A stretch of DNA of 64,000 nt, taken from Acidobacteriota bacterium. Its GTDB lineage: Bacteria > Acidobacteriota > Terriglobia > Versatilivoradales > Versatilivoraceae. The position numbers and the translations under genes are program-made. The stretch is from positions 1 to 64,000 of the forward strand of contig JAJDUG010000026.1 in assembly GCA_022826755.1 (NCBI GenBank), read 5' to 3'. Within the stretch, counting starts at the first letter, position 1, and each line of letters begins with the position of its first letter. The notes under the pieces were generated by a model. That model had not been told where the DNA came from. It made no database searches and was given only the letters and a program-made list of their open reading frames with translations. Of the stretch, positions 31,591 to 48,716 are shown piece by piece.

Positions 31591-33102
31591 ATGACCCAGC
31601 GACTGGCCAGACAGGTGGAAAGGATTCTGGACGAGGGGTCCGGAAGTCACCGCAGTGTCATCGTGCGAATGAAGCTCCCGGAAAAGGACGAGGAGACGCT
31701 CCTTGGGGTGGTTGCCGGCGCCATTCAGCGGCGTACGCTCCTGCTGACGGCTCGGGACATTTTGCCGACCCACCTGGACCTGGTGGCCGGACCGGGTAGA
31801 GGGACCCCCTCCGATCGAGCCAGGGAAACACTCGGGGAAGAAGGCGGTCTGGCCGCCCAGGTAGCTGCCACGGCCATACCACAGGTGAGCAAGCGGGTGC
31901 TTCGGTCCAGGGGTCTGAGATCACTGAGACCCCTCTACTCGGGTTTGCTCAAGCTCGGTCGGCGAGCCGACGGCGCCAGGTCTTTCTGGACGTCGAGATG
32001 TGCGGTCCTGCAAACCACCAGGGATGACCTGGCAAAGTTGAATCAACTGGTGGAGGAGTCGCTGATCGGAGACATCTACCCGAACCGGGTGCTGCACGTT
32101 CCCCGCCTGGTGGAACTGAAGGCTCTTCCCTCGAGGGTGGTCGAGAACAAGGCCAGCGCCTGGGGGATTCATGCGGTTGGAGCCCTGGCCGCCCGGGGGG
32201 CTTACGGAGCCAGTGGGAAAGGGGTCAAGGTCGGAGTCCTGGACACTGGTGTGGACGCCGGCCACCCCGACCTCGAGGGCAAGGTGGCGGACTGGGCTGA
32301 ATTCGATTCCAATGGAGAAGAGGTCCCCGATTCACAGCCGCACGACACGGGTCAGCATGGAACTCACGTCGCCGGCACCATTGCCGGGGGGAAGGCCAGC
32401 GGGCGTTGGATCGGCATGGCCCCGGCTGCCAGGTTGGCGGTTGCCATGGCCTTGGACGGAGCCAAGGGGGGGACGGACGCTCAGGTGCTCGCCGCTATCG
32501 ACTGGGCGGTCGAGCGCGGGGTCGATGTGTTGAACATGTCATTGGGAGGACTGACGTTGGGCCCCGAGGTCCCGAGCACCTATACCGAGGCGATTCTGAC
32601 GTCGCTGAGGGCCGGAATCCCCGTGGTGACCGCCATTGGCAACGACGGTCAACAGATCACCGGGTCTCCCGGCAACGATCTGCTTTCCTTTTCCGTGGGG
32701 GCGACCGACTATCGAGACTGCGCGGCCGCTTTCAGCGGAGGTCGAACCCATGTCATCCGGGAGTCCAACTTCGTTTCTCCGGATAATCTGCCCCTTGTCT
32801 ACTCCAAACCGGAGATCTCCGCTCCAGGGGTGGCGGTCTACTCGTCGGTGCCGGGCGGCAAGTGGGCCGCTTTCAACGGAACCTCCATGGCCACCCCTCA
32901 TGTCGCCGGCGCCATGGCGCTGCTGCTGAGCGCGACTTCCATCAAGAAGCGTGTGGCGCCCACCAACCGTGCATTCCTGATTCAGGACCTGCTCACCGGA
33001 TCGGTTGAAGAACTGGGAGAAACCGGACAGGATCACCGTTTCGGGTTCGGGCGGCTCGACATCCTGCAGGGCATCGGCTTTGCCAGGGAAAAGGGATTCT
33101 GA
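31591..33102 (+). CDS. S8 family serine peptidase (subtilase) with N-terminal domain, no signal peptide
   Basis: A 503-residue protein. The catalytic triad is complete: Asp in GVLDTGVDAGHPD near residue 217, His in GQHGTHVAGTIAGG near residue 255, Ser in GTSMATPHVAGAM near residue 432, with the oxyanion asparagine in AIGNDG near residue 351. The first 200 residues form a separate domain that begins HRSVIVRMKLP and ends GDIYPNRVLHVPRLVELKAL. It resembles a subtilase propeptide set apart by a long insert. No signal peptide is visible, so the protein may act inside the cell or leave by an unusual route. A small gene encoding a similar N-terminal-type domain follows 40 bases later. Confidence 0.88.
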   Translation: MTQRLARQVERILDEGSGSHRSVIVRMKLPEKDEETLLGVVAGAIQRRTLLLTARDILPTHLDLVAGPGRGTPSDRARETLGEEGGLAAQVAATAIPQVSKRVLRSRGLRSLRPLYSGLLKLGRRADGARSFWTSRCAVLQTTRDDLAKLNQLVEESLIGDIYPNRVLHVPRLVELKALPSRVVENKASAWGIHAVGALAARGAYGASGKGVKVGVLDTGVDAGHPDLEGKVADWAEFDSNGEEVPDSQPHDTGQHGTHVAGTIAGGKASGRWIGMAPAARLAVAMALDGAKGGTDAQVLAAIDWAVERGVDVLNMSLGGLTLGPEVPSTYTEAILTSLRAGIPVVTAIGNDGQQITGSPGNDLLSFSVGATDYRDCAAAFSGGRTHVIRESNFVSPDNLPLVYSKPEISAPGVAVYSSVPGGKWAAFNGTSMATPHVAGAMALLLSATSIKKRVAPTNRAFLIQDLLTGSVEELGETGQDHRFGFGRLDILQGIGFAREKGF

Positions 33103-33520: not shown

Positions 33521-33586
33521 AGGAATTTAAATTCTTGTGGAACATCAGCCCGTCCGGGCAAATACGAAGACGGCTACGGACTCCGC

Positions 33587-34732
33587 TTGGTGGTCTCGAA
33601 GTCCGGCGCCAAGAAGTGGGTCTTGCGGTACACCCTCCACGGTCGACGCCGGGAAATGGGGCTTGGCAGCTATCCGAGTGTCGGTCTGGCTGATGCCCGC
33701 ACCCTGACCTTGAAGTGCAAAAGGCAGGTGGCCAAGGGCTCAGATCCCATCGAGGCCCGACGAATGGAGTCGAAGAGAATTCCTGCCTTTACCGCCTGCG
33801 CGGCACGCTATATCCGAGGCCATCGGCACGGCTGGCAGAATGCCAAACACGCACGGCAATGGGTCAGTACGCTCAAGACGTATGCGCGCCCTGTCATCGG
33901 CAAAAAACCAGTGAATGCCATCACGACTGAGGACATCCTTCAGATCCTCTCACCGATCTGGGCCACCAAGACCGAGACAGCCAAGCGGGTGCAGGGGCGT
34001 ATCGAAAACATTATGGATTTCGCGGCAGCCCATCAGTACCGCGACCCCTTGAACCCGGCGCGGTGGCGCGGCCATCTGGACAAGCTGCTTCCCAGGCCCT
34101 CTCGGGTGAAGAAAGTCGCTCACCACCCTGCCATGCCGTATGCCGAAGTGCCCTCGTTCTTTGATGAGCTATCCCGAAATGGGAGCGTGTCGGCGCTGGC
34201 GCTGAAGTTTTTGATCCTGACCGCCAGCCGTACCCTGGAGGTATTGCACGCCGAGTGGAGGGAAATCGACGTGCCGGCCGGCGTATGGACTGTTCCAGCC
34301 TCGCGGATGAAGACCCGCCGGGAACATCGAGTACCCTTGTCGGATTCTGCCATGAGGGTTCTGGAAGCGCTGCCCCGCATCCAAGGCTGTCCGTTTGTTT
34401 TCCCGGGATCACGAAACGGTCGGCCTCTGTCGAACATGGCCTTGCTGCAATTGATGCGCGGCATGGGCTACGGCGTCAACAGTTCGCGTGGAGACTACGT
34501 GCCCCACGGATTCCGTTCCGCCTTCCGGGACTGGTCCGGGGAGGTCTCCAGCTTCCCCCGGGAGGTAGCGGAAATGGCCCTGGCCCACGCCATCGAAAAC
34601 AAGGTGGAAGCGGCCTACCGTCGCGGCGACCTGTTTGAAAAGCGTCGCAAGATGATGCAGGAGTGGGCCGATTACCTAAAGCATTCAAAGTCAGCCGAGG
34701 CCAATTGGCCAGAGGCAGCAAGAGACTCCTAG
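33587..34732 (+). CDS. P4-type tyrosine integrase, 5' end apparently eroded
   Basis: A 381-residue tyrosine recombinase. Catalytic residues are all visible: the first Arg in LTASRTLEVLHAEW, HRVPLS (His/Arg box), HGFRSAFRDW, and the nucleophile Tyr in KVEAAYRRGD near residue 345. The N-terminal DUF4102 domain (MGLGSYPSVGLADARTL) is recognisable. Its homology begins upstream of the first usable start: the same frame reads SARPGKYEDGYGLRL from about 33548, yet no ATG, GTG or TTG lies between the previous stop at 33520 and TTG 33587. The usual LTDTAxRN start is missing. It is either expressed from TTG/GTG with a shortened N-terminus or is an inactive relic marking the island edge. Confidence 0.82.
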   Translation: MVVSKSGAKKWVLRYTLHGRRREMGLGSYPSVGLADARTLTLKCKRQVAKGSDPIEARRMESKRIPAFTACAARYIRGHRHGWQNAKHARQWVSTLKTYARPVIGKKPVNAITTEDILQILSPIWATKTETAKRVQGRIENIMDFAAAHQYRDPLNPARWRGHLDKLLPRPSRVKKVAHHPAMPYAEVPSFFDELSRNGSVSALALKFLILTASRTLEVLHAEWREIDVPAGVWTVPASRMKTRREHRVPLSDSAMRVLEALPRIQGCPFVFPGSRNGRPLSNMALLQLMRGMGYGVNSSRGDYVPHGFRSAFRDWSGEVSSFPREVAEMALAHAIENKVEAAYRRGDLFEKRRKMMQEWADYLKHSKSAEANWPEAARDS

Positions 34733-35622
34733 CATTCAGATCAAACACATTGTGGAATTCATACTTACTGACTCTGGTGATTCCCCAAACGCCGGCGACT
34801 CAGGATGACAAATCACTAAGTCCTATCTAAGCCGGTCGCTTCGGCCGAGGCGCGACGTTAATTGCAACTCAAGGGTGGGAATTGCCCAAATAATCGCAGT
34901 GTTCGAGATTGGAAAAGTGGGAAATTCGGAGAATTTCCGAGGTGGCGGAGCGACCAGTTTGTCCACAGCCAGTTTCTCCCCACCGTCGAAACGGTTCTGG
35001 ACTAACAGGTCCCAAGGCACTGTTCGAACAAACACATTTGCAGTTGATCTGCCGCGCCTTAATGCCGTGCCGGGCGTGTGCTTAAACGACAAACTGCTGC
35101 TCCCTCAGGCATCCATCCCAATACTTCCCATTTAGACTCTGCACCAGGTCACTCCGAATCGGCTTTCCGCCTGTCATGCCTGCGTCCGCAGTGCCGAGAT
35201 CGTCGAATGAAGTCCAAAGCACGCGTGTTGCGAATCGTAGAGCTACGACTATATCTGTGTTGGGCTAGAAGCAGAAACGCACCCGTGTGGGGACGCCGCT
35301 GTACAGTCACATCGCCAGCGTTGCATTCCGATTCGTGGCCCGTCCAGCCGAGCGGCGCCAATTCCATTGAACATCACATTCGTTCGTGTCCCTGTACCCC
35401 TCCAGTTACCCATCTTGCGTCTGTGAAGGAAGAGGTGGCGTCATGGGATTGATCGCTTAGGCACAAAATGGGTGGCAGGCTCCTGGCTAGCGTAAATATC
35501 GTGTATGCCCCCATCAAAGAGTTAGTGTCCTGCCGCGCCCCAGGATAGACTCGTCAATTCTTTCCTTCATTGGAGATCAATGATATCGTGGCGCGACGCC
35601 TTAAGACGTTTACGATTTTGCC
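34733..35622. other. Gene-poor region between the integrase and the DUF4338 operon
   Basis: 890 bases in which only short open frames of 60-125 codons occur on both strands, with no recognisable motif. Composition becomes more AT-rich than in the flanking core genes. The region probably carries the promoter of the downstream operon and decayed mobile DNA, but I cannot identify a specific remnant. Confidence 0.5.
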
Positions 35623-36561
35623 ATGCCGGAGCACGCCTCAGTTACTCTTCGCAAACTTTCAGAAGGGGAAATACCTCTGAATATCCGGGGACGTTTGTGG
35701 GGAATCGAAGAGCTTTCCGTTGTTGCTGAGATCGTAGAGGAATATTGGACGTCGGGTCGAACCAAGATTTCAGAAGTGATTTGCGAGCGTCTAGATTGGC
35801 GACAGCCAAACGGGTGGTTGAAGGATCGGGCGTGTCGTGACCTTCTGCTTAGACTCGACTCCCTTCGGATTCTGAGACTACCACCTCGTCTGTCCGACGG
35901 TGGAGGCACTCCTCCCAAGCCCAACCAGGGACCTGATCGCCTCAGTCGGTTCGACCTAACTACGGAGATCCGGGAAGTACGAGCTTTTGGGCTGTCTCTC
36001 GCAAAGGGGAACTCCTTTGAGCCGGTGTGGAATCAAACGATCGAACGGTTTCACTACCTCGGCCATCGGAGCGGGGTTGGAAGGTGTCTGAAATACCTGG
36101 TCACTGCAGAGCATGACCTTCTTGGAGCGATTTCTTTTTCGTCCCCTGCTTGGATGATAAAGTCACGTGACCGTGCCCTGGCGAGTGTGGGTATCACTCC
36201 CACTCAGATAGCCGATCGCGTGATCAATAACAACAGGTTTCTTATTCTCCCGCACGTGCGCGTACAAAACCTCGCTTCCAGAATTCTGGCAGCTGCAACC
36301 TCACAGGTAGTCTTCGACTGGAGTATGTATTATGAATTGACACCATCAGTCGTTGAAACCTTCGTCGAACCAATCCGTTTCAGCGGGGCATCCTACCGCG
36401 CCGCCAACTGGGTGCAGGTTGGGACGACCCGGGGCTATCTCAAAAGGGGGAGTAGTCACGCGAACTCACAAGTGCCGAAGCTAATCTTCCTCTACGGGCT
36501 CCAGCGCCGTTATCGGCGTCGTCTCGCCACGTTGGACGCACGTTCTCATGTCGGTACATGA
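35623..36561 (+). CDS. DUF4338 (DruA-like) protein
   Basis: A 312-residue protein. The DUF4338 core is clear: RFHYLGHRSGVGRCLKYLV near residue 143, LLGAISFSSPAWMIKSRDRALA, the VINNNRFLILPHVRVQNLASRIL stretch near residue 200, VVETFVEPIRFSGASYRAANW and VGTTRGYLKRG near residue 267. DUF4338 is the domain of DruA in the Druantia anti-phage systems, where its molecular activity is not established as far as I know. The N-terminal 100 residues include a winged-helix-like SEVICERLDWRQPNGWLKDRACRDLLLRL, found in many DUF4338 proteins. It is the first gene of a three-gene operon and overlaps the NurA-like gene by 14 bases. Codon use is more AT-rich than in the flanking chromosome. No clear ribosome binding site precedes ATG 35623. 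Confidence 0.87.
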   Translation: MPEHASVTLRKLSEGEIPLNIRGRLWGIEELSVVAEIVEEYWTSGRTKISEVICERLDWRQPNGWLKDRACRDLLLRLDSLRILRLPPRLSDGGGTPPKPNQGPDRLSRFDLTTEIREVRAFGLSLAKGNSFEPVWNQTIERFHYLGHRSGVGRCLKYLVTAEHDLLGAISFSSPAWMIKSRDRALASVGITPTQIADRVINNNRFLILPHVRVQNLASRILAAATSQVVFDWSMYYELTPSVVETFVEPIRFSGASYRAANWVQVGTTRGYLKRGSSHANSQVPKLIFLYGLQRRYRRRLATLDARSHVGT

Positions 36562-37606
36562 TTCACTTCGTTGGGCGAAGGAATTCATCCGTGACCAGGA
36601 CGGTTCTGTCGCCCCTCTGCCTCTTTCCGAAGAGGAATTCAACCCGGACATCCAAGACGACCTGTCGTTGCAGGCGGTGCTTGTTGAGTCCAAGCAAGTT
36701 AGCCGTATACCGTTTGACTACCCTGCTGACGCTAGTGAATCAGAATTCCGATTCTTCGAAGATGGCCGTCAGCAAACGATTCAGATCGGACATATCCCGG
36801 TTGAATTCTCTGGCGACCATCGACTCCTTATCCCTGTCCATTACTTCGTGGTCGCTGCCGCAATTCTTGAGCGCAAGAACCGACGTTTAGCGCTGTGGGG
36901 AAGCCCAATAATTAGGGAGGGCATTTTAGTCGCTAAAGATTTAGTGCCAGACCAGCGCGTCTTAAAGAGAATCGAGGATACAGGGCTAAACGTTATCGAC
37001 ACTAATCCCATCGAAAGCGACTATTACAGACTGCGACGTAGAGCTCTCAATAGGGCGAAGGATGAGCGCCTCACTGTCGAGCAGCATCTGATCCGCGACT
37101 GGCGCCGTAGCAAAGAGGCCCACGACCATTTTCTGGTCATTGACGGTACGTTGATGAATCTGCGAGACGAGGAGAACGTTGAGAGGTGCATCGGGGTTAG
37201 CAAGAGTTTTGGATCCCGCTATTTTAATGTTACTGACCATAACCGAATTATGGCTATGACCGAGTTCGAGCGGTCTTGGGCCTTTCGGTTTCACTCCGAC
37301 GACTCGGACCTACGGATGAGGGGACGTGAGAGGTTAAGTTGGTATTTGAGATTGAGGTCGGGTGAACGAAGAGAACCCGAGTACGGATTGGTCCGGGTCG
37401 AGATTGGAAGACAACACGCACCGCGCGTTTCCGAACTTGCAGATCGCTTCTCTCGATCTCTACTCGCGGACCGCTTGCCAACGTCATACCCAGCCCCTCG
37501 CTGGGACAAGCACCTTTACCCAATTCGAGCCTGCGAGAGATATCTGACGAGCGTCATGCCGTCAAAGGGAACGATTGCCGCAACAATGGGAGGAGGTTGG
37601 GCATGA
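36548..37606 (+). CDS. nurA: NurA-like nuclease
   Basis: A 352-residue protein. Features of the NurA 5'-3' nuclease fold are visible: an acidic RFFEDGRQQTIQIGHIP segment near residue 69 where NurA has its first metal-binding Asp, a DHFLVIDGTLMNL segment near residue 194 matching the second acidic strand, and CIGVSKSFGSRYF near residue 213. A basic WYLRLRSG strand and the EYGLVRVEIGR strand come later. NurA partners normally form a complex with hexameric HerA to resect DNA. That fits the next gene, which overlaps by four bases (ATGA). The catalytic assignment is by pattern only. The operon also contains a DUF4338 protein, which is unusual for NurA-HerA pairs. Confidence 0.72.
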   Translation: MSVHDSLRWAKEFIRDQDGSVAPLPLSEEEFNPDIQDDLSLQAVLVESKQVSRIPFDYPADASESEFRFFEDGRQQTIQIGHIPVEFSGDHRLLIPVHYFVVAAAILERKNRRLALWGSPIIREGILVAKDLVPDQRVLKRIEDTGLNVIDTNPIESDYYRLRRRALNRAKDERLTVEQHLIRDWRRSKEAHDHFLVIDGTLMNLRDEENVERCIGVSKSFGSRYFNVTDHNRIMAMTEFERSWAFRFHSDDSDLRMRGRERLSWYLRLRSGERREPEYGLVRVEIGRQHAPRVSELADRFSRSLLADRLPTSYPAPRWDKHLYPIRACERYLTSVMPSKGTIAATMGGGWA

Positions 37607-39360
37607 CGGACCAATTGACTAGAGCTGATTCTATACCTCGTCTTAACGGATCGCCGGTCCTGCAAGATCAGGTCCATTCCGCAGAGGTAGAGGCGCCGGT
37701 GATGTTCGTCTCTGACTCTGGCAAATCTCTCGGTCGAACTGCGTCTACGAAGTTCGAACCCAACACGTCCAGTCGATTCCTGTTTTGGATCGCACGCGAA
37801 GAGGAGGATTTGGATAGAGGCAAACTCGAAATCGGTAACATCGTAGCGGCAGTAGCTGACGATGCATCAGACGTCACATTCGGGACAGTCGTTGAGATGA
37901 GATCTTATTCGGATGTAGACAGCTTCATCGCCGACTACCTAAGCCACGACTTCGGTAACGCTAATCTCCAAGTCCCGACAGACATCGCGGAGATCGTGGT
38001 TGTGACGTGCGATGTGATGCGAAATCTGTCCAACACCGCCCGGCCCGTAGGCCGATCGAGGGTATACTTCCCGAGTTCGCTGGGGATTCAATTCGCATAT
38101 GGGCTCGTAGACCGAAGTGGTGAGAGCATCTTCACCGGCGCGGCGATTCCAATCGGAATCTTTGAGAACGGTGATGGTACGACTGCGGCCGTGAGCATAG
38201 ATGAGGACTTTGTGATTGGCCCGGAGGGGGCTCACGTAAACGTTTCCGGTATCTCTGGATTGGCATCAAAAACGTCGGCGATACAGTTTGCTGTCAAATC
38301 GATCTTGACGCACACTTCGAAGAAGATTGGAGTCGTGTTCTTCAACGTCAAGAGTCGGGACCTACTTTATATAGACGAGCCTAACCCACAAGCACTAGAA
38401 GACCAGTGGTCGGTTCGTGTTTACAAAGAGCTCGGTATTCCGGTTGAGCCTTTCACTCAGGCTAGGTATTTCGCTCCACGAGATCCCGAGAAACCTGGAT
38501 CCACTCAAAGTCACCGGACGAAGGAGATCGAACCGTTCAGCTGGGATCTCCCGATGATCGCTGACGACATCCCTCAATTGTTCAATCCGCTTGATTGGGA
38601 TGACAAGCTAGAAGGTGCGTGGCTACGCGTCCGGGATGAAATAGACAATACGCCGCTATCTTCTTATGGTCAGATGTGGAAGTGGATCAAGCGCCTTATC
38701 AATGAAGCTAGTGCAGCCAATAATCAATGGCCCCAGGGGAGCCACATACAGACTTGGAGAAAACTAAACTCACGACTAGAACGCTTTCCCAAGTCGTATC
38801 AGGGACTAATTGAGACCCGGGGTAAGGGACAGGACATCCCTTGGAATGAATTGGCAGGTGAGTCGTTGTTCGTCGTTGACATGGAAATGCTGGGGGATCG
38901 TGGCAAGCGACTCGTTTTCGGCAGAGCGGTTCGTAAGTTAAGTGACATGATGGAACAGGAAGGGGCGGACCTCGATGCGGTCGTAATCTTCGTTGACGAA
39001 CTAAACAAGTTTGCTCCGTCGGGTAATTTGCGGACTCCGCTCAAGAGTCGCCTCGTTGATATTACTGCGCGCGGGCGCTCGATCGGGCTGGTCTTGTTTG
39101 GAGCCGAGCAGTTCTCATCCTCTGTCGAGAACGAAATCATAGAAAACAGTTCCACGTTCCTATATGGACGAACAGAGAGTAATGAGCTTCGGGCACCGGG
39201 ATATGCTTCGCTGTCGAGCGAAGTGAAGGCGAAACTCACCATGTTAACTCAGGGTCGTCTCCTGGCGAGATTCGCGAAATTCCCGCAACCGATATTCCTT
39301 CGCTTTCCGTATCCACCTTGCCTCCCGGGTGACAAATACGGCGAGGCGCCGGACGGTTGA
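37603..39360 (+). CDS. herA: HerA-like ATPase
   Basis: A 585-residue protein. The ATG at 37603 overlaps the NurA stop as ATGA and has GGGAGGAGG six bases upstream; the longer TTG start is unlikely. The N-terminus has a HAS-barrel-like region (LGRTASTKFEPNTSSRFLFW, LEIGNIVAAVADD, TFGTVVEM). The ATPase core follows, with a P-loop-like segment NVSGISGLASKTSAIQF near residue 220 and Walker B AVVIFVDELNKFAP near residue 462, then the RSIGLVLFGAEQF sensor strand. In the P-loop the residue before the lysine is Ser instead of Gly. HerA-type hexamers translocate DNA and load NurA-type nucleases. I infer a nuclease-translocase complex directed by the DUF4338 protein. Confidence 0.83.
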   Translation: MTDQLTRADSIPRLNGSPVLQDQVHSAEVEAPVMFVSDSGKSLGRTASTKFEPNTSSRFLFWIAREEEDLDRGKLEIGNIVAAVADDASDVTFGTVVEMRSYSDVDSFIADYLSHDFGNANLQVPTDIAEIVVVTCDVMRNLSNTARPVGRSRVYFPSSLGIQFAYGLVDRSGESIFTGAAIPIGIFENGDGTTAAVSIDEDFVIGPEGAHVNVSGISGLASKTSAIQFAVKSILTHTSKKIGVVFFNVKSRDLLYIDEPNPQALEDQWSVRVYKELGIPVEPFTQARYFAPRDPEKPGSTQSHRTKEIEPFSWDLPMIADDIPQLFNPLDWDDKLEGAWLRVRDEIDNTPLSSYGQMWKWIKRLINEASAANNQWPQGSHIQTWRKLNSRLERFPKSYQGLIETRGKGQDIPWNELAGESLFVVDMEMLGDRGKRLVFGRAVRKLSDMMEQEGADLDAVVIFVDELNKFAPSGNLRTPLKSRLVDITARGRSIGLVLFGAEQFSSSVENEIIENSSTFLYGRTESNELRAPGYASLSSEVKAKLTMLTQGRLLARFAKFPQPIFLRFPYPPCLPGDKYGEAPDG

Positions 39361-39627
39361 TCGGAAGCTATCCGCATAGATTCCAAGAGTCGCCGTATCG
39401 GCATGGCGGTGGCGTCCCCTATGCCCTGCGGGATGCCTAACTCGTGAGGTTTAGTGAAAAAGCGGATTAGTGCGTTGTCAACTTAACCCGGAAGCGAAAG
39501 TTGGCCGCGCTTGGGACGTCCCGAGCCAGAAGAATATGATCCACTGAGGAAGTATCTAGCCCTTATCCAGTCGTTAATTGCCCCGGCTATCCGAGCCGGT
39601 CTGACTGCCTTCCTGCAAGGGATCACT

Positions 39628-39738
39628 GTGGAGAGAGCGACCCCCGCCGGGGAGGGGAGATGGTGGATTTTGGCGTGCACCATCTCCCCCTGCCCGGTGG
39701 CGCACCAGCGCCGAAAAAATGGGGGTCGCTCTCTCCAC
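39628..39738. repeat. 111-bp inverted-repeat element with two internal hairpins
   Basis: A perfect 18-bp terminal inverted repeat (39628-39645 with 39721-39738, GTGGAGAGAGCGACCCCC) encloses a perfect 12-bp hairpin (39654-39665 with 39678-39689, GGGGAGATGGTG) and a 5-bp hairpin GGCGC-ACCA-GCGCC at 39699-39712. Transcribed from either strand, it would fold as a three-way junction. It may be a miniature inverted-repeat transposable element, a structured noncoding RNA, or an unusually elaborate terminator between two converging genes. No target-site duplication is obvious. Confidence 0.7.
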
Positions 39739-39752
39739 CATCCCCCCCCTCC

Positions 39753-39813
39753 CGTGCGGCGCCACGACGTGCCGTGCGAGGGGGGCACGCGCGGGGCCAC
39801 CGCCGCACGGCAC
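39753..39813. repeat. Adjacent GC-rich sequence with two mutually exclusive hairpins
   Basis: CGTGCGGCG at 39753-39761 can pair with CGCCGCACG at 39801-39809. Alternatively GTGCCGTGCG at 39769-39778 can pair with CGCACGGCAC at 39804-39813. The two right-hand arms overlap, so only one stem can form at a time. It lies 15 bases from the 111-bp element and may belong to the same unit. Confidence 0.55.
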
Positions 39814-39960
39814 TTTACCGCAGAGGACTCGGGCAATCCGTGCCAACTCATGTCCAATGCGGGTTTCCGGGCACAGTCTGGACCACAACGGCGAGGGCTT
39901 CGCCCTCTGATAGTGCAGATTTGTAGTTGTCAAATTGGTGCACCACCTGCGTGCACAACT

Positions 39961-40893
39961 CTACTTTGTAACATGGTCACCAATACGACGGCATCGGCGT
40001 GACCCCCAGAGGCGGAAACTGTCGATCGAACCGCGCCCCTTGGGCACCGGGTTTTCCCGCTCCCATTGGACGAGCTTCGTTAGGGCGGTATTGAGATCTC
40101 CATGGCGTTCGACAGTGTCCCAATCGGCCTCGTCGATGGCCTGACGAAGCACGAGAAACTCTTTTTCGTCGTCGCTCATGTCTCCGACCGTCCAGGATCG
40201 GAGCCTCCGGCCGGCGCGGTCCAGGAGCTTTTGCTCCCAGGCGACCGCAACCACCTCGACGCGCCGGCCGCACTTGCGGAGCCTCTCCCAAAGGCGGCGG
40301 TGGGCCTCTCCCCAGGAGTCCAGTTCCGTACGGGTTCCCATGCCGGGGTCGACGTAGACAAAGACGGCCGACTTCGGGCCAACGGCAACGGGCGTCTTGA
40401 GGGGGAAGTAATGGATCAGCCCCTTGGCACGGCCGGAGTAGATCCTGCGGGGCAGCAAGTCTCGCTTGATCCCGAGCTGCTCGAAGCAGGAGACCTTCTC
40501 CTGATCGGTCGGCAGCCAGGGCAAGTCCAGATGATCCAGAACGAAGTCGAGAGACAGCAGTCGCCTCCGAGTGACTTCAAGCGAGGTCTCCCGGCGGTGA
40601 CGGGAGTGGGGGATCTCCAGCTCCCGGTAGATCTGTTTGCCGAAGATGCGACAGATGAGCCGGCCATCAGCGACTCGTTCGTCGGCGAACGGCCGGGACG
40701 AGACCCGGCAATCGAGCAGGGCTTTGACGCATCGCCGGACGTAGAAGCGATTGGCCCCCTGTAGGAAGAAGGCGAGCTGGTCTCGGGTGAACAGACCCGA
40801 GTGAAGGCAGACCAGGGTGATCCATTCGGCCTGTTGCCGGGGGAAGCCAACAATCTCCAGCAGTTTTTCTCGTCCCTTCAGGTGGGCAATCAT
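39961..40893 (-). CDS. Conserved-looking protein of unknown function
   Basis: A 310-residue, strongly basic, soluble protein. The N-terminal third (residues 10-90) looks like a winged-helix DNA-binding region: EWITLVCLHSGLFTRDQLAFFLQG, then RRCVKALLDCRVSSRPF and a GRLICRIFGKQIYRELE beta wing, similar to replication-relaxation or mobile-element-associated proteins. The middle contains SAVFVYVDPGMGTRTELDSWG, and the C-terminus VVAVAWEQKLLDRAGRRLRSW. I cannot assign a family with confidence. It lies in the island beside the inverted-repeat element and converges with the HerA-like gene, so it could belong to a mobile element. Confidence 0.6.
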   Translation of the reverse strand: MIAHLKGREKLLEIVGFPRQQAEWITLVCLHSGLFTRDQLAFFLQGANRFYVRRCVKALLDCRVSSRPFADERVADGRLICRIFGKQIYRELEIPHSRHRRETSLEVTRRRLLSLDFVLDHLDLPWLPTDQEKVSCFEQLGIKRDLLPRRIYSGRAKGLIHYFPLKTPVAVGPKSAVFVYVDPGMGTRTELDSWGEAHRRLWERLRKCGRRVEVVAVAWEQKLLDRAGRRLRSWTVGDMSDDEKEFLVLRQAIDEADWDTVERHGDLNTALTKLVQWERENPVPKGRGSIDSFRLWGSRRCRRIGDHVTK

Positions 40894-41476
40894 GGTTTCC
40901 CTGATCTTGGGTATGGGGTCTCCATGCCGACAGCTTCACGCTTGCTGGTGGTGTTGTTCCGTGCCTCAAGGCTAGCACACTTTCTCGGAGGCACAGCCTC
41001 GCCTTCTGTGGGGTTGGTCCCGCGGATGTGAGCTATACTGGCGACCAGCCAAAGGTCAGGGTATCAACCAACCAATGTGAAGCCATGCAGCGGAAGCAAG
41101 GCAAGGACGGGTGGTTTCCCATCTGGGGTGTATTCTCCAGTGAAGCGAAATTGGGAGCGGGTCAAGCACGTCAGGTAGTCAGGGAGGAGCGAATCCGTGC
41201 ACGCCGGATCGGGAAATCAGGGAGCGGCGGGATGCAGAAGCCTTTAGTTTGGCAGGGCTTGTGGTAATCGGCAGCGGCCGGTGGCGTATTGTGGGGAGCT
41301 TGGTCGTGCTTGCGTCCTGCAGGTGAATTCAGAGACCGCAGGCCTCAGCCGCGAATAGCCGCGATTTTGGGTCACAGCGCATTCCATCGTCCGAATGCTC
41401 ACGCAGACCGGCAACACCGGCCGAAGGTCCTTGCGAACGACCTCGGCGTTTTTGCCGTGCGGGAGAAACTGATTCT
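40894..41476. other. Intergenic region with no supported gene
   Basis: 583 bases between the unknown gene and the 3' end of the PHP-SMC ATPase, both on the minus strand. Short frames on the plus strand (for example 41028-41267) show no family signature, and the region may be decayed. It must contain the promoter for the unknown gene near 40900-41030, but I see no clear promoter elements. Confidence 0.45.
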
Positions 41477-44293
41477 TCAGAACCCGTATTTTTCTTTTCT
41501 CAGATTAAAGGCAGCCTCGCCGCCTTCCATGATCCGCTTAATCGCGTCCCGGACTTTATTAACGTCGATCGCACCTTCGCCGGCGATTGTGCCTCGCGAT
41601 TGATCTCCGGCCGTCCGGTAGTCGCACCAAGCGACAAGCTCCGCGTCGCCATTCACTACAAGGTTCGCATTGTGGCTGGCGAAGACAAGCTGGCGCTTCT
41701 GTTTCGCCTCCCAGACTCGTTCAACGATTTGCAGCATCACAGGGTTGTCCAAGTCCTCTTCAGGTTGGTCGATGATCAGAGGTGGACCCGGCTGGTTCAG
41801 CAGCGTTTTCAAGAGTGCCGTAGCTTGCTGTCCCGCCGACGCGTTCCGAAACGGGATGTATTCCTGTTCCCGAGCCTGGTATTCGAACTCTGGCTCGCTC
41901 TTGATGGGCGTAAGTGACAGCGTCAGCCAATCATCCGGTCTTAGACTTCGACCGATCCCGTCCAAATTAGTTTCCGTCAGTCCGGCTCCCGATAACACGG
42001 GCGCCTCAGGCCGTTTATCGGCGCCATCCCTTTCTTCATCAAACTCTGCCAATTTCTCCAAGTCAGCAAGTATCCTTCTCCACAACGTTCTTGCTGCTTC
42101 CGGGGTATCGGCACCCGAAATACTTTCAGCCAGACGTTCGATCTTGTTGCCCGGCACACGAGACCCGGTCACTGCCTGCTTCAGACCTTCTATGAAATCC
42201 CTCCCGTCTGCGTATCGGTTCACCCTCGCCCGAATCGCCGCGCCTGAGTCCGAAGTGAGCTTCACACACTGCTCATCCAGTGCATCATTCCGCTCCTCCA
42301 TCAAGTCTTCCCACGCTTCTCGCTCAGCCCGGTGTGTTGCCTCCGCGCCCGCCAGCAACCTCAACTCTTCTCTTACACGCCCTGTTTCCCTGACATGTGC
42401 CTGATGCTGTTGTTCAATCGCCTTCAGTTGTTCCATCTTTTGCCGGTGCGCCGACGAACGCTCCACGGCAGCGTTATATGCCGCTCTGAACTCTAGCCGT
42501 TTTTCAGCCCATCGCCGCCACGGGCGGTGCTCATCCATGGTTTCGGGCTCGCGCATCATTGCATCGGCACGGTCGATCAGTGGATCGAGATTGGCCTTCG
42601 CATCAGAAAGCAGCACTTCATATTCCTCGAACGCTTCTTTTAGGATCTCCCGTTCCGGCTCCACCGGTGGCGCCTCGGCGCCTGACAGATGTGATTCAAC
42701 CGTTCTGCGCAGGCTATCTGCGCCCTCCCGGAAGCTATTGATCCCCTCACGCCACAACTCAACCGCCTGATCCGCACCGGAGAACACCGTCCCCCTATCG
42801 AGGAGCGCACGGTCCTCTTCTGAAAGCCCTGTTAGCCCTCGCCGTAGGGCTTCGGCCTGTTCTGAGAGTGACACTTCAGTGAGCCGCCTTTCCTCAAGTG
42901 TCCGAGACAGCGCGCGCCGTCGCCGCACCGTTGCGTATGTTTCTTTGATTCGCTCCGTTCTGTCGGATAGTCGCTTCTCGATGTCGTCCAACGTGGCGCG
43001 GATCGGGGACGTGATGAAACGTGAAAGTTCATCTACGCGCACACTTACATCGCTGAGCTGCTTCTGGCTGTATGCTTGGATAGGGAGCAGCCTCCGCACT
43101 TCTTCCTCAGAACACGGCCGCATATCGTCACCGCCGATTTTCATGAGCAGCTCGCCGTTCTGACTCTCTCGCCGAACCGTATGGGGCACGCCATGTATGT
43201 CAAGCTTCACTTCTACCGTCGCATTAAGCGGCCTAAGTGTCTGGTCAATGAGACGCCGACGGCGCTCCAGATAATTTGGCGCGTCGTCTTCGTCCACACT
43301 CGGGGGCGGCTGGTCGCACAACCCCCATCTGAGGTATTCTAGAATCGTTGATTTGCCCGTGCCACGGCCCCCAATAAGCGCGTTGTATTGCGAATTGAAT
43401 TCCACGTCGAATGGGCCAAGGAATTTGCTATTACTGAGCGAAATGCCATTAATCGCCACCGCTGGCAGCCGGGGATCTTCCTGCGAAACCCTTGATTCCT
43501 GAGCCAGACACGCTTGCCGTAGTGCCTCGGCTGTCGGCGTCGCCCACTTCACCCACGTCGATACACTCCCCAGCTCTGCATGGTCTTCGCTCCGACTATC
43601 CGAAGTCTGAAACACCGCAATACGCTTGTTCCCGTATTCACGTGCCTTTCCATTAATAATGCGCAGGTTTCCTTGTCCGAGCTGCGCAATTGAGCCATCA
43701 ACATACCCGCCGACGCAGGGCATTGCTTTGTATTTTGGTCCCGCCCCTCTCCGCAAAAGAGTGGTGGAACCGCCTTCACTGACATTTGGCAGGATGATAT
43801 ACCTTCTTCGCAGGAACTCGTGCTTGTCCAACTCGTCCCGCAGCTGACCAAGCGTCGTTATTTGCTCCAAACGCGCGACCTCGGCCGTTGTGGGTTCTGA
43901 TGAATGTCGCGCGGTTATTGCCAAGGCAGTCAGCGCCAATGAAAACAGGTCTTCCGGTAATTCGGCATCGAAAATGAGCAACGCTTGACACGGAACGTTG
44001 AGCGTCAATTCAATACCTGGAAAAACGATAATCTGCTTATTTTCAGACACAGGGCTTCCATCATCATCAATCTCTGTTTTTGCGGCCTCTCTGATGTACT
44101 TAGTGAATGCCAGATCGTGATGGTCCGTAATTGCAACTGCATCCAGTCCCTTCTCTCGACATGCTTGGATGAACCGTACCGCATAGTCACTCCGGTCCTC
44201 GTCGGAAACGTAATGCGTTCCGGTCCACTGAATGTCTCTCGGCGTGTGAACCTGCAAATCACAGCGGTAGAAATGTGCTCCCTTGTCCATCAT
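41477..44293 (-). CDS. PHP-domain and SMC/RecN-like ATPase fusion (TrlF type)
   Basis: A 938-residue protein. The N-terminal 280 residues are a PHP-type phosphoesterase domain: DLQVHTP near residue 12, the AITDHHD metal motif near residue 55, FPGIELTLN near residue 92. The rest is an SMC-like ABC ATPase: Walker A GGRGTGKSTIL near residue 312, a long coiled coil (about 430-700), then the ABC signature region FRNASAGQQATALL and Walker B PPLIIDQPEEDLDN near residue 862, closing with VFASHNANLVV. This domain order is that of TrlF-like proteins that recur in defence loci. PHP cleaves phosphate esters, possibly nucleic acid, and the ATPase probably senses DNA. Its role in this island is inferred. 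Confidence 0.85.
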   Translation of the reverse strand: MMDKGAHFYRCDLQVHTPRDIQWTGTHYVSDEDRSDYAVRFIQACREKGLDAVAITDHHDLAFTKYIREAAKTEIDDDGSPVSENKQIIVFPGIELTLNVPCQALLIFDAELPEDLFSLALTALAITARHSSEPTTAEVARLEQITTLGQLRDELDKHEFLRRRYIILPNVSEGGSTTLLRRGAGPKYKAMPCVGGYVDGSIAQLGQGNLRIINGKAREYGNKRIAVFQTSDSRSEDHAELGSVSTWVKWATPTAEALRQACLAQESRVSQEDPRLPAVAINGISLSNSKFLGPFDVEFNSQYNALIGGRGTGKSTILEYLRWGLCDQPPPSVDEDDAPNYLERRRRLIDQTLRPLNATVEVKLDIHGVPHTVRRESQNGELLMKIGGDDMRPCSEEEVRRLLPIQAYSQKQLSDVSVRVDELSRFITSPIRATLDDIEKRLSDRTERIKETYATVRRRRALSRTLEERRLTEVSLSEQAEALRRGLTGLSEEDRALLDRGTVFSGADQAVELWREGINSFREGADSLRRTVESHLSGAEAPPVEPEREILKEAFEEYEVLLSDAKANLDPLIDRADAMMREPETMDEHRPWRRWAEKRLEFRAAYNAAVERSSAHRQKMEQLKAIEQQHQAHVRETGRVREELRLLAGAEATHRAEREAWEDLMEERNDALDEQCVKLTSDSGAAIRARVNRYADGRDFIEGLKQAVTGSRVPGNKIERLAESISGADTPEAARTLWRRILADLEKLAEFDEERDGADKRPEAPVLSGAGLTETNLDGIGRSLRPDDWLTLSLTPIKSEPEFEYQAREQEYIPFRNASAGQQATALLKTLLNQPGPPLIIDQPEEDLDNPVMLQIVERVWEAKQKRQLVFASHNANLVVNGDAELVAWCDYRTAGDQSRGTIAGEGAIDVNKVRDAIKRIMEGGEAAFNLRKEKYGF

Positions 44294-44453
44294 TCCTCTT
44301 CTCCAGCCACGGTGTTCGGCATCGTCCCGTGGCCTCCTGTTGAATATGCAGTATCTTTCCGCTTTAGCATGCCTATGTAGCTGTCACACTTCACTGTTGT
44401 CTTATCGAATATGAACGAATCGAGGAATCGGCTGGTCATACTCATGGCGCTGC

Positions 44454-46238
44454 TTAGGTGCTTTGGGTACCGGACGAATGAGCGACATCGCCAAATAGAC
44501 GCCCCGTCTTCCGGTCAACACGGTATCCTGCGTTTCGCAGGGCGATCAGCACGTCTCCCAGATGCAGGTCGTCCAGCAATAGACCCTTTTGGATGGCCTT
44601 GCGCAGCGTCCGTGCATAAACGTGGCTCGCATTGCACGGCCTATCATCTGCTAACTCGTCGATTGCTGCCCTGATCAGGGAATCCGTGTCGCCGTTGGCA
44701 AGCGTCACAGCCCTTTCTGTCCCCACACCTTTCGGTGGACGCTGCACTGTCAGAATCAAGTCCACCGTGACGACGCCCTCTGACCCGGAATTCAGGCCTT
44801 TCACTGAACGCTGCCCCTTGTCGAGGAGCGCCACATGCACCGGAGATGCCTTAAACCCGGCATCGCGCAACGCCCGCTGCACTAGGCCCCAGATGCGGCC
44901 ACTGCTGTTGCCAAACACCACCGACATATATCGGCCCGGCTTCAGTACCCTGAACGCCTCGGAGAAGGCGTTGCGCAGGAGCTCTTCATAGCGCTCTGCG
45001 GACCCGTTCTTCCGTTTCCCCGTCGTATGAATGACGGCCTCGCGCGAGTGATCAGTCGTTTCCGGGAGCCACGCTTCCTGAAACAGGTTCATGTCGGAAT
45101 AGAAAATGTTGCTGCCGAAGGGCGGATCGGTGAACACATAATGGGCCGAGCAGTCATCCAAATGTATTAGCTTCTCAGCGGACGCAATCTCGTAACTGAC
45201 ATCCAGAAGTTTCTCGGTGCTGAACAAATCCCAGCCGCCAAAAATAGCCTCATTCGCCCGTATGACGGCATTCACCTTACGGCCGTACAGGTCAAAAACG
45301 TTCCACTCGAAATACACTGGCGCGACGTAATATGTTTGGTTCTGAGCATTTAGCGGCCGCTTCGCGCTCCACTGATACCGCATCGAGGCCCGCGGCAGGA
45401 TGGCGGTGAAGGCGAAGCGCAGGTTCTGGCGTATCGCTTCGTCTTGAACGTTGTTGATCGCGCGCCACAGTTCGACTAGGGCGATGCTGTTGCGCGGCGA
45501 GAAGAACTTCCCAGTTTCCGTCATTCCAGACCGCCCAAGTCCGGAGCGGCTGAACATTTCGCGATCCTCGTCGATTGGAAGGGACGGTACCTTGAGCAAG
45601 CGCCCGTCTCTCAAGGCCTCGCGCATCCTGCGCCGATCGGTTTCGCAGACCTCCTGCGCCACTTGCCTACCGTTCTCCCCCTGAACGATAACTCTCACCG
45701 GAACGTCGTCACCGCGCAGCCAGCTTCGTCGAGCAAACGGGGTACCACAGGACGAGCACCGTTGAGGCACGCCGCCGCGCGCGTTTAGGGCTTCGTAAAA
45801 CACCATCTCATTCCTGCAGGACGGGCACAGATAGGTGAACGACCAGATTGTCCGGATCATCTCGACCTTCGTTCCATCGGAGCCGCGTTTCGTCATATAC
45901 AGCGTGCCGAGAGCCTTGCGGGCAGCCGCCATCGCCTGATTCGCTTCGGCGCGTAGACCCGGCGTAGCCGCATCCATCAAATAGCCTGTGGCAATATGTT
46001 TTCCGAGCACCGAGATGTCGCTAAGCCGTGCGCGCCGGTTCAACATCAACGCGGCGAGGCCCGTCATCCCGGAACCGGCGAAGAAGTCCACCACCACCTC
46101 GCCAGGCTTTGTAAACGTCTCTATGAAGGGCTGGATCGCGCGGATAGGCACCTTTGTCAGGTAAGCATGGCAGTTATAGATCGGATCCGTCCGCGGGACC
46201 GTGATCGTTTCGGGAAGCCGTATCGGGTCCGGGCTCAT
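44454..46238 (-). CDS. DNA adenine/cytosine-N4 methyltransferase of a restriction-modification system
   Basis: A 594-residue methyltransferase. The AdoMet motif VVDFFAGSGMTGLAAL lies near residues 49-64, and the catalytic motif TDPPFGSNIFYSD near residues 373-385. This gives N6-adenine or N4-cytosine specificity with the motif order of the beta group. A zinc-ribbon insert (CPSC at about 137 and CSSC at about 160) and a long central region probably read the DNA target. It diverges from the controller and nuclease genes across about 100 bases, the classic arrangement of controller-regulated type II systems. The product should protect host DNA from the partner nuclease. The target sequence is not readable from the protein. 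Confidence 0.87.
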   Translation of the reverse strand: MSPDPIRLPETITVPRTDPIYNCHAYLTKVPIRAIQPFIETFTKPGEVVVDFFAGSGMTGLAALMLNRRARLSDISVLGKHIATGYLMDAATPGLRAEANQAMAAARKALGTLYMTKRGSDGTKVEMIRTIWSFTYLCPSCRNEMVFYEALNARGGVPQRCSSCGTPFARRSWLRGDDVPVRVIVQGENGRQVAQEVCETDRRRMREALRDGRLLKVPSLPIDEDREMFSRSGLGRSGMTETGKFFSPRNSIALVELWRAINNVQDEAIRQNLRFAFTAILPRASMRYQWSAKRPLNAQNQTYYVAPVYFEWNVFDLYGRKVNAVIRANEAIFGGWDLFSTEKLLDVSYEIASAEKLIHLDDCSAHYVFTDPPFGSNIFYSDMNLFQEAWLPETTDHSREAVIHTTGKRKNGSAERYEELLRNAFSEAFRVLKPGRYMSVVFGNSSGRIWGLVQRALRDAGFKASPVHVALLDKGQRSVKGLNSGSEGVVTVDLILTVQRPPKGVGTERAVTLANGDTDSLIRAAIDELADDRPCNASHVYARTLRKAIQKGLLLDDLHLGDVLIALRNAGYRVDRKTGRLFGDVAHSSGTQST

Positions 46239-46271
46239 GGGCTACAGAAGCTCCCAGATGTGTAACGTAAA

Positions 46272-46292
46272 GTCTGTAGACATACAGTATAC
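46272..46292. promoter_or_regulatory. Candidate controller-protein binding site
   Basis: Between the divergent methyltransferase and controller genes, GTCTGTAGAC at 46272-46281 is an imperfect palindrome, directly followed by ATACAGTAT (46282-46290) and the overlapping GTATAC (46287-46292). Paired short dyads in this position are the usual layout of C-boxes that set restriction-modification expression. A CATAAT hexamer at 46313-46318 could be the minus-10 element of the controller-nuclease promoter. Confidence 0.4.
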
Positions 46293-46339
46293 ATGGCCGT
46301 TACTCTACCCTCCATAATTTTGAACACTAGGTCGTCACC

Positions 46340-46567
46340 ATTCCTACGCCAAAAGAGACTTTCGCTTACAATCTGAGGCGCCTGCGATCCTCTGCGGGTA
46401 TCTCCCAGGAGGAGATGGCCGCCCGCGCCGGCCTGCACCGCACCTACATCAGTTCCGTCGAACGCGCGCAGCGCAATGTCTCGCTTCAGAACATTTTCCA
46501 GATCGCAGCCGCCCTCGGCACGACTCCTGCCGAGCTGCTGAAACCCGTCCCGAAAGGCTTAGGCTGA
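46340..46567 (+). CDS. XRE-family controller protein of the restriction-modification system
   Basis: About 75 residues. The helix-turn-helix is unmistakable: YNLRRLRSSAGISQEEMAA, then RAGLHRTYISSVERAQRN, then the IFQIAAALGTTPAELL helix, ending in a short tail. It overlaps the nuclease gene by one base (TGATG). The frame is open from 46331 but contains no ATG, GTG or TTG before the helix-turn-helix; ATT at 46340 or CTG at 46373 would have to serve. I give ATT 46340 because the upstream residues IPTPKETFAYNLRRLR look like genuine family N-terminus. Translation may be leaderless, which is common for controller proteins. Function: delay nuclease expression until methylation is complete. Confidence 0.75.
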   Translation: MPTPKETFAYNLRRLRSSAGISQEEMAARAGLHRTYISSVERAQRNVSLQNIFQIAAALGTTPAELLKPVPKGLG

Positions 46568-48051
46568 TGGGTTTTAAGGCTGACACCAGCTTTCTGCGGT
46601 TTCTGAGTATGGGTGCCGTCGGCGTCCATCGCACGATGCAGCGATTGCGCGACCGCGGCTTCGAGCCGATCGAGCTTGAACGCTATTGCGGTTCCAACAA
46701 GATCTGGACCACCAAAGTCAAACGACTGCGCCTCCCAGACCTTCTCTGCATCAGGACTGGAATGCGTGCCGAAGTTCGCGCAAAAACCGACCTCAAAATC
46801 CGCATGAGCGACGCACCCGCGAACCCGGTAAGGATCTGGGACGCCGGTTTACGTGATGACGATCTTGTTGCCCTGATCACCTGTTTCGATACAGATGATG
46901 GCCTGAAGCCTGCCGATGACGCGGTTTACTTCACTGTCGGCGCGCTGCGCGCCTCCGTACACAGATCTAGGCTGGGTCCGCCGAAATCCGCATCCGAAGG
47001 CGCTGAGCGCGACAGGACATGGCCCGCCATCGTCCCGACTCGCGACGGCACCGTGCTTAGAGTCACGAACAAACGTCTTATCGTGCAGATGAAGGCCGAT
47101 GCTGAACGCTCGGCTCGTCGGCAGACCTACACGTTGGGTAGCAAGACCGTCTATGTCTCGCCCGGCGACACCTTTAGGGCGCAAACCACCATTCTCGGCG
47201 GCGAACCACCGGGCCTTGCCAATTTGTCGGCCTATCAGCAACGTCGCTATGCGCCGCTGGACGATCTACAGGTAGACACGGCGGTAGATCGCTACGCCGC
47301 GGTCAAAGCCCTGCGCTTCCGTGACGATCCGCGTGATCAGGTCATACCGGCGCTAGAAGACCTCGTCCGTCGGGAAACCGAAGAACGTGTCGCCCTCGAA
47401 GCGGCTGGTTCCGCTGCCGCTCTCGGTTCCGAATTCGGGCAGGAACAGATCACCCGTTTCGTCTGGGAAAATGACGACCGGCCTGACTTGCGTATGGAAG
47501 CAGTTTTCATCCTAGCCGAAATTGGCCGGAGTCTCTTTACTCGTGAACAGCTGAACCGGGTTCTTACTGATCCTCTTTTCGAAGGAGATGAGCTGCGACA
47601 GGCTGCTGTCTGGGCGCTCGGCAAAGCCGGACTCCAATGCTATGAAGATGTCCTCCGCTTCATCGACGACGTTGACGAGAACCTCGCGTTGCACGCCATA
47701 AGCGCTTTTGGTGCCAATACGCCCCGTCCGATCATCGACTGTCTCGTCCAGGACCTCATCGTCGGTGACCCGCGCCGCGCACCGGCGGCATCCGAAGCCC
47801 TCCGGATCATTGCTTCAGACGAGGTCTTGCAAGCACTCGTCGCGGCCGCCAATGCTGGCGAACCCGTTGCGGACTGGATTATCGCCACACTCGGCCGCTT
47901 ACCGCCGGACGGAGTGCGCGCGGCCCTTCGAGACTCGCCGTTGCTCGATCAGATTACTCCCATGTTGCTCATTGCCCAGGGCGCACACTGGCTTGCTTCC
48001 GAATCCATCTCTACCGATATTGCCTTCCTCCTGAAACAGAACCTCTCCTGA
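46567..48051 (+). CDS. Restriction nuclease candidate with C-terminal HEAT-like repeats
   Basis: A 494-residue protein overlapping the controller stop by one base. The N-terminal region (residues 15-85) reads GFEPIELERYCGSNKIWTTK, then LRLPDLLCIRTGMRAEVRAKTDLK. The acidic PD and the E-x-x-x-K around residues 57-72 fit a PD-(D/E)XK-type nuclease core, although the last lysine position deviates. Residues about 230-470 form alpha-helical HEAT-like repeats (EALEDLVRRETEER-like helices, LRMEAVFILAEIGRSL, ELRQAAVWALGKAGL, LALHAISAFG). Position with a divergent methyltransferase and controller makes a restriction enzyme the best reading. The family is not one I can name. Confidence 0.65.
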   Translation: MGFKADTSFLRFLSMGAVGVHRTMQRLRDRGFEPIELERYCGSNKIWTTKVKRLRLPDLLCIRTGMRAEVRAKTDLKIRMSDAPANPVRIWDAGLRDDDLVALITCFDTDDGLKPADDAVYFTVGALRASVHRSRLGPPKSASEGAERDRTWPAIVPTRDGTVLRVTNKRLIVQMKADAERSARRQTYTLGSKTVYVSPGDTFRAQTTILGGEPPGLANLSAYQQRRYAPLDDLQVDTAVDRYAAVKALRFRDDPRDQVIPALEDLVRRETEERVALEAAGSAAALGSEFGQEQITRFVWENDDRPDLRMEAVFILAEIGRSLFTREQLNRVLTDPLFEGDELRQAAVWALGKAGLQCYEDVLRFIDDVDENLALHAISAFGANTPRPIIDCLVQDLIVGDPRRAPAASEALRIIASDEVLQALVAAANAGEPVADWIIATLGRLPPDGVRAALRDSPLLDQITPMLLIAQGAHWLASESISTDIAFLLKQNLS

Positions 48052-48716
48052 CGCCTAAGAATCTGCCACAATCCAATCACCTACAGGAGGAAGTCGACAT
48101 CTGCCTCCAATATGCAGGTGCCCGCGCGCAATCAATGGCATGTAATCCCGTGGGTGTGGCCCCCAGCTTTGTAGTTCTGTCATCCCGATTCGACATTGGG
48201 ACATACTGTGAAATGTGGTTGATCTCGAGACGTCCCGGCTTATCGGCGAACAAGTCCTCCCGGAACAAGCGGCACCCGCGGTGCGGGCATGCGCGTCGGA
48301 GTTCTAGTTCTTATTGAGGGGCTGGAGGACCAAAGTTCCAAATACCATTTCAATTTTGAGTAACCTGCAATAGTTACTTGGCGGAGAAAGAGATCCCCAA
48401 GTTTGTTTGCGCATCTTCCAAGGCTACTCTGTTCTTCTTTCGAACTCTAGACACACGGGTGCTCCTTGGGCAGCATGTCGTGGAATTGTTCCACGAACTA
48501 ATTGCTCTGCGCCTGGCAGGCCCGGGTAGTACAGTATTTTCTGTCCGGGCAGTAATGGCTGAAAGACAGGTGTGCCAGCTCAAAATGCTAGAAATCAGAC
48601 ACATTGACTAGGTCTTGGAGCGGTCAACGACGTAACAGTTGGGGGACTGTATGGGGGATCACTAAGAGAGATATAGAATGTAAAACGATGATATATAATG
48701 GTTTACATACAAAATC
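48052..48716. other. Intergenic region between the nuclease gene and tRNA-Ser
   Basis: 665 bases with no supported gene. Frames of 60-77 codons occur on both strands near 48374-48611 but show no motif. A TGGCGGAGA copy at 48379-48387 repeats the first nine bases of the tRNA-Ser 3' end as read on the plus strand, and could be an old attachment-site remnant. The last 90 bases before the tRNA are AT-rich. Confidence 0.4.

Follow-up and report, generated by a model that had tools for sequence, protein, structure and literature searches.

A recurrent DUF4338-NurA-HerA operon on an acidobacterial genomic island, with a first protein related by sequence to phage Mom, as a possible restriction-modification-like system

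The HerA-NurA complex of Thermococcus kodakarensis cleaves both strands of linear double-stranded DNA exonucleolytically, and its authors have proposed an antiviral role (PMC12977600). Mom domains of jumbo phages that are fused to nucleases have been interpreted as a combination of modification and restriction (PMC7824862), and the DUF4338 domain has been called a GNAT acetyltransferase (PMC10853773). The present study deals with an operon of an Acidobacteriota bacterium that encodes homologues of Mom, NurA and HerA side by side. It is located on contig JAJDUG010000026.1 of assembly GCA_022826755.1, whose positions 1 to 64,000 were analysed; this whole stretch of 64,000 nucleotides is called the window in the following. 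The three genes of the operon are:

35623-36561, + strand: DUF4338 gene (Pfam DruA), 312 amino acids, from the list of open reading frames (ORFs)
36548-37606, + strand: gene of the predicted NurA-family nuclease, 352 amino acids, from the ORF list and a profile match to Deinococcus radiodurans NurA (7f6d)
37597-39360, + strand: gene of a HerA-family hexameric ATPase/translocase, 587 amino acids, or 585 amino acids from the ATG at 37603, from the match to 7f6d HerA and the HerA tree

The DUF4338 and NurA genes overlap by 14 nucleotides, and the NurA and HerA genes by 10 nucleotides from the TTG start at 37597 or by 4 nucleotides (ATGA) from the ATG start at 37603; the overlaps of 14 and 4 bases given in the initial annotation correspond to the latter start. 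Our comparison of all six genomes that carry a close NurA relative showed that the DUF4338 gene is located directly upstream and the HerA gene directly downstream of NurA in each of them, in the same order and on the same strand, with intergenic gaps of -14 to +10 nucleotides. This conservation supports the interpretation of the three genes as one unit. The initial annotation had come to the same view, and the recurrence in conserved order among unrelated genomes by which it proposed to check the operon was indeed found. Its further statement that the operon is richer in AT than its surroundings agrees with a GC content of about 0.53 in the triplet compared with 0.60-0.66 in the surrounding DNA.

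The six loci are widely scattered. With the middle protein as query, a single close NurA relative was detected among 396 genomes of the same phylum; it belongs to another class and is accompanied by both partner genes. Three further loci were obtained when 84,980 species genomes were scanned with two NurA motifs alone, an approach blind to DUF4338, and the full triplet was present in three out of three. Their source labels are metagenome-assembled genomes of Gammaproteobacteria, Anaerolineae and Chloroflexi, labels that are possibly wrong, above all for the 4.8-kb contig of locus L018. The sixth locus stems from a Chloroflexota sample. Because just 19 of 199 genomes of the same phylum have DUF4338 genes, the adjacency in all six loci shows that the arrangement is not due to chance. 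Moreover, the three proteins co-diverge, as judged from the correlation of their distance matrices (Mantel r 0.84, 0.81 and 0.73; 3, 6 and 1 of 720 permutations). The triplet is rare, considering that well over 1,000 genomes were searched with a NurA protein or profile. A second copy was absent from the 369 genomes of the class of L018, no NurA relative was found on plasmids, and the scans of viral contigs yielded no triplet locus; the only phage match, a distant NurA, comes from Marinitoga virus 1. Marinitoga camini virus 1 encodes a NurA-HerA pair of its own (L021:3518-6226). At two of the triplet loci the adjacent genes are conspicuous: XisH and XisI genes lie immediately upstream in one (L008:7853-8598), and an integron-type tyrosine integrase is oriented divergently from the triplet in the genome from the Chloroflexota sample (L033:9050-10132).

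Pfam, PADLOC and NCBIfam yielded no direct hit for the middle protein. A profile that combines it with nine relatives hits D. radiodurans NurA (7f6d) at 4e-6. A Marinitoga virus protein that carries the annotation Rad50/Mre11-associated exonuclease is matched at 6e-10, and its gene is adjoined by one annotated as HerA. Conserved positions in the ten-row alignment are D72-G73, E178, D199-G200, K219, R268, E285 and H322; of these, D199, E285 and H322 are identical in all rows, and D72 and E178 are nearly invariant. NurA of T. kodakarensis requires its motif D49 (PMC12977600), which probably corresponds to D72. The AlphaFold2 (AF2) model of the middle protein, calculated from five sequences, reached a predicted local distance difference test (pLDDT) score of 42 and is unusable, and the assignment of the NurA fold therefore rests on sequence. 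On these grounds the middle protein is assigned to the NurA nuclease family, and its earlier description as NurA-like holds. The third protein matches D. radiodurans HerA of 7f6d at 1e-33 with aligned P-loop (GISGLASKTS) and Walker B motif (VVIFVDELNK), and PADLOC 2.0.0 gave only weak mad8/HerA matches for it. In the HerA tree, all triplet HerAs form one clade with a support of 100/99.

The GNAT-fold domain of the first protein comprises residues ~118-297, and residues 28-88 look, by eye, like a winged helix-turn-helix. The Foldseek matches of its AF2 model (pLDDT 68.7) are GNATs. Among 1000 chains re-aligned with VIA-align, Mom of phage Mu (8bv8) takes the top position with a Z of 10.3 over 165 residues, followed by GNATs at Z 8.8-10.1; Mom and the GNATs are thus tied within 1 Z. 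The comparison by hhalign of a 24-sequence DUF4338 alignment with an 11-sequence phage Mom alignment resulted in a probability of 97.7 and an E-value of 1.6e-12 over 168 columns; the controls gave E-values of 0.38 for the reversed Mom alignment and of 0.01 or weaker for ordinary GNATs from the same genome. Individual triplet proteins also match the PHROG family "Mom-like DNA modification protein", at 2e-4 and 2e-5. Deeper alignments are needed to see the link to Mom: a single Mom sequence compared with the five triplet DUF4338 proteins gave an E-value of 0.085, and the matches of the window protein at E<=1 do not include Pfam Mom (PF25680), which has only a sub-threshold match in loci L089 and L105.

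The aligned residue pairs of Mom and DUF4338 are H48-Y49/H144-Y145, R101/R205, S114/S219, D139/E249, Y149/Y258 and N153/N262. All of them except D139 are near-invariant in both families, as judged from 24 DUF4338 proteins, and H144/Y145, R205, S219 and Y258 are invariant in the five aligned triplet proteins. R101, D139 and Y149 are residues that we take to be functional in Mom. The PDB title of 8bv8 names Mom S124A inactive, and this S124 is taken to be S114 of GenBank Mom, given the offset of ten residues between the GenBank sequence of 231 amino acids and the 8bv8 numbering, which runs to 241. The sequence comparison identifies this branch of DUF4338 as homologous to the Mom DNA-modification family, and the evidence suggests that the window protein is a DNA-modifying enzyme of the Mom kind. 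Proteins of the Mom-like DUF4338 subfamily are also found fused to DDE transposases (L089:1207-3513; L090:1-2280, Tn5-type; L105:1444-2883), and Mom-like enzymes may travel as transposase partners.

Membership of the operon in Druantia, to which the initial annotation had linked the first gene, was considered and rejected. The window protein matches Pfam DruA/PF14236 with 96.4 bits and 2e-27 (gathering cut-off 27). The two DruA models of PADLOC, which detect true DruA proteins in relatives (L080-L082) at 1e-123 to 1e-175, match neither the window protein at E<=1 nor the protein of L018 at E<=0.01. No DruE-type helicase or DUF1998 protein is present among the identified proteins of the genomic island on which the operon resides, and in the other triplet loci only NurA and HerA were seen downstream of DUF4338. 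The window protein is accordingly placed, by these profile searches, in a subfamily distinct from canonical DruA, though both belong to PF14236. The match of three canonical DruA sequences to Mom (E 0.014) is not significant and the Mom residues are not visible in them; the Mom claim is therefore not extended to the DruA of Druantia.

NurA-HerA pairs outside the triplet provide the context for this enzyme. A type IIG restriction-methylase, identified by PADLOC with 1740 bits, directly precedes NurA in six loci, often with a 4-nucleotide overlap, and follows HerA in another (L036); methyltransferase genes follow HerA in L011, L012 and L039. The six loci with the upstream enzyme are single operons whose genes overlap or nearly do so (L009:6488-12780, L010:6839-13032, L011:3979-11589, L035:2-5301, L037:274-6301, L043:2735-8885), and they can be read as restriction enzymes to which an exonuclease motor is coupled. 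Most of these restriction-type cousins have their DNA-modifying enzyme at the very position of DUF4338, which consequently holds the slot of the modifying enzyme. In four other loci (L034, L041, L042, L045), NurA-HerA is flanked by genes for a metallophosphatase and an SbcC-like ATPase, which we read by eye as Mre11-Rad50. Well-supported splits in the HerA tree set apart the triplet clade, the restriction/methylase clade and three of the four repair-type rows. A further type of neighbor is an HSP90-like ATPase gene after HerA (L013, L038, L046). In two distant genomes (L013:7514-13953, L038:6397-12716) the NurA-HerA pair is followed by this gene (HATPase_c_3) and then by one that resembles, by eye, B12-binding radical-SAM genes; the conserved order is possibly indicative of another undescribed NurA-HerA system.

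Given the cousins with a type IIG enzyme or a methyltransferase beside NurA-HerA, we propose that the triplet represents a restriction-modification-like system: the Mom-like enzyme would put a mark on the host DNA, and DNA that lacks it would be removed by NurA-HerA. We assign this reading a probability of roughly 0.45. By homology, a predicted modification enzyme and a predicted nuclease are united in one operon. DUF4338 would modify bases of the host DNA and HerA-NurA would then spare the host, the mark thereby protecting self. Unmodified incoming DNA would be degraded: the HerA hexamer would pump the double-stranded DNA into the NurA dimer, which would degrade both strands, as is the known activity of HerA-NurA. 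Phages or plasmids are the presumable targets that the operon would stop. It is the degradation of double-stranded DNA in T. kodakarensis, together with the Mom-nuclease fusions of jumbo phages, that makes self-marking the most likely of the explanations considered. The more far-reaching version, namely, that the operon performs cellular restriction-modification via Mom-type base hypermodification with HerA-NurA as the restriction arm, and that all non-canonical DUF4338 proteins are Mom-family DNA-modifying enzymes, is more doubtful and put forward tentatively.

Several observations weigh against self-marking. HerA-NurA is end-dependent and a circular chromosome is mostly without ends, so that protection by a base mark is hard to explain. 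The closest non-triplet HerA (L034), connected by a long branch, has genes for a metallophosphatase and an SbcC-like ATPase as neighbors, which is a repair-like setting. The position of Mom D139 is occupied by D, E or Q in DUF4338. A clear defence neighborhood is present at only one of the six triplet loci, that of the window. Finally, the clearest relatives of DUF4338 elsewhere adjoin transposases or are fused to them, and Mom-type chemistry need not equal self-marking.

The best-surviving alternative is the marking or sensing of invaders, in which DUF4338 recognizes or modifies foreign DNA and recruits or triggers NurA-HerA, the host being spared because it is not recognized. The initial annotation had likewise let DUF4338 mark foreign DNA. 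The N-terminal region, which resembles a DNA-binding winged helix in sequence and helix pattern, is consistent with such a role, and defence systems built on HerA, DUF4297-HerA for instance, are promiscuous and depend on a trigger (PMC11291478). The cousin operons, however, pair NurA-HerA with self-modifying methylases or type IIG enzymes rather than with sensors, and the active-site residues that DUF4338 keeps are those of a modifying enzyme; we regard invader marking as somewhat unlikely, and by analogy with the restriction-modification cousins self-marking appears the more probable assignment. Abortive infection is a clearly weaker candidate. In this scenario, released NurA-HerA would destroy host and phage DNA alike, which is the reported outcome for DUF4297-HerA (PMC11291478), and DUF4338 would be a regulator that acylates NurA or HerA instead of DNA. 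GNATs often acylate proteins, as has been suggested for DUF4338 domains fused to DndF (PMC10853773), but by sequence the triplet protein is related to Mom, which acts on DNA bases, rather than to the protein-directed GNATs. Least probable is an accessory repair or mobility module, in which NurA-HerA would process DNA ends, as its archaeal and Deinococcus counterparts do, and DUF4338 would be a transposon-derived passenger: the DDE transposase fusions in L089, L090 and L105, the presumed Mre11-Rad50 genes beside other NurA-HerA pairs (L034, L041, L042, L045) and the integrase adjoining the L033 triplet are outweighed by the patchy, island-borne distribution with absence from six genomes of the same genus, the strict three-gene order and the separation of the triplet HerA clade from three of the four repair-linked rows.

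If the restriction-modification-like reading is true, base hypermodification joins the marks that cells use for self recognition, and the puzzling HerA-NurA complex gains a defence role together with a testable self-protection partner. Whatever the mechanism, the homology of DUF4338 to Mom provides a concrete biochemical hypothesis for the family behind the DruA of Druantia. It splits canonical DruA, in which the Mom residues are not seen, from a larger non-canonical group that keeps them. The transposase-associated DUF4338 proteins would be reframed, too, if their Mom-family nature is correct.

The operon is part of a genomic island with the following features and flanks:

33547-48714, no strand: genomic island of 15,168 bp at the 3' end of tRNA-Ser(GCT), from blastn of the same-genus loci L073, L074 and L075
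48717-48806, - strand: tRNA-Ser(GCT), the insertion site, from ARAGORN and the empty-site comparison
33587-34732, + strand: P4-type tyrosine integrase adjoining the left border (Pfam Phage_int_M, Arm-DNA-bind_3, Phage_integrase)
39961-40893, - strand: protein of 310 amino acids, by eye like a winged-helix mobile-element protein
41477-44293, - strand: TrlF-family PHP-domain ATPase (NCBIfam NF045780, 1e-162)
44454-48051: DNA methylase and HEAT-repeat gene, beside the TrlF-family ATPase gene
31591-33102: subtilisin-like protease, left island flank
48916-50172: VWA protein, right island flank

The borders follow from three empty sites in genomes of the same genus: window position 33546 is fused straight to 48715 in two of them, and the join lies within a few bases in the third. 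In line with this, the protease and VWA genes are ~650 bp apart in the same-genus genomes G516, G530 and G555. No direct repeat of at least seven bases was found between the island borders, and none of the six same-genus genomes searched contains the NurA gene. Another same-genus genome, G543, harbors ~3.4 kb of other DNA at the tRNA-Ser site (L076:2253-5655), which is why this site may be an integration hotspot. The arm-binding domain of the integrase aligns only from profile position 27, and its N-terminus may be shortened. The 310-amino-acid protein has no match in Pfam, PADLOC or NCBIfam. The integrase, the TrlF-family PHP-ATPase, the DNA methylase and the tRNA site show a mobile island with other defence genes, in keeping with the island described in the initial annotation; the restriction-modification system named there can be affirmed only in part, because the neighbor of the methylase shows only HEAT repeats.

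No PADLOC 2.0.0 system is matched by all three proteins, and in the open-licence literature we found no paper that describes DUF4338 or DruA with NurA/HerA, or a link between DUF4338 and Mom, in agreement with the initial annotation, which knew of no characterised system with exactly these three parts. Druantia type I (DruA-DruE) shares Pfam PF14236 with the first gene, but the triplet lacks the DruE helicase and its DUF4338 subfamily is missed by the DruA models of PADLOC. BREX-Related Capture (PMC12839542) likewise has a HerA/FtsK translocase and a GNAT for which DNA modification has been proposed; it differs in having seven components, among them PglZ and a BrxC-like protein, in the absence of NurA and in the presence of the GNAT in a subset only. 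In DUF4297-HerA (PMC11291478) and other HerA defence pairs, a HerA-family hexamer also drives a nuclease, whereas the nuclease of DUF4297-HerA has a PD-(D/E)XK fold and the system is abortive and without a modification gene. The operons of type IIG enzymes or methylases (L009-L012, L035-L037, L039, L043) exhibit the same NurA-HerA order with an adjoining DNA-modifying partner, but an N6/N4 methyltransferase or a type IIG enzyme takes the place of the Mom-like GNAT, and their NurA is only 21-25% identical. The second and third genes are homologous to both subunits of the HerA-NurA complex of D. radiodurans (7f6d) and T. kodakarensis (PMC12977600) and keep the P-loop, Walker B and NurA D/E/D/H-type residues; the known complexes, studied as repair enzymes, stand alone or with Mre11-Rad50 and lack a DUF4338 partner. 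With phage Mu Mom and its momylation, finally, the first protein shares homology across the whole GNAT domain as well as the key Mom residues. The triplet differs as a cellular operon with an extra N-terminal region in DUF4338 and with NurA-HerA as the predicted nuclease arm in place of a domain with restriction endonuclease fold, and it resembles in its presumed logic the phage Mom-nuclease fusions, which are already viewed as restriction-modification-like (PMC7824862).

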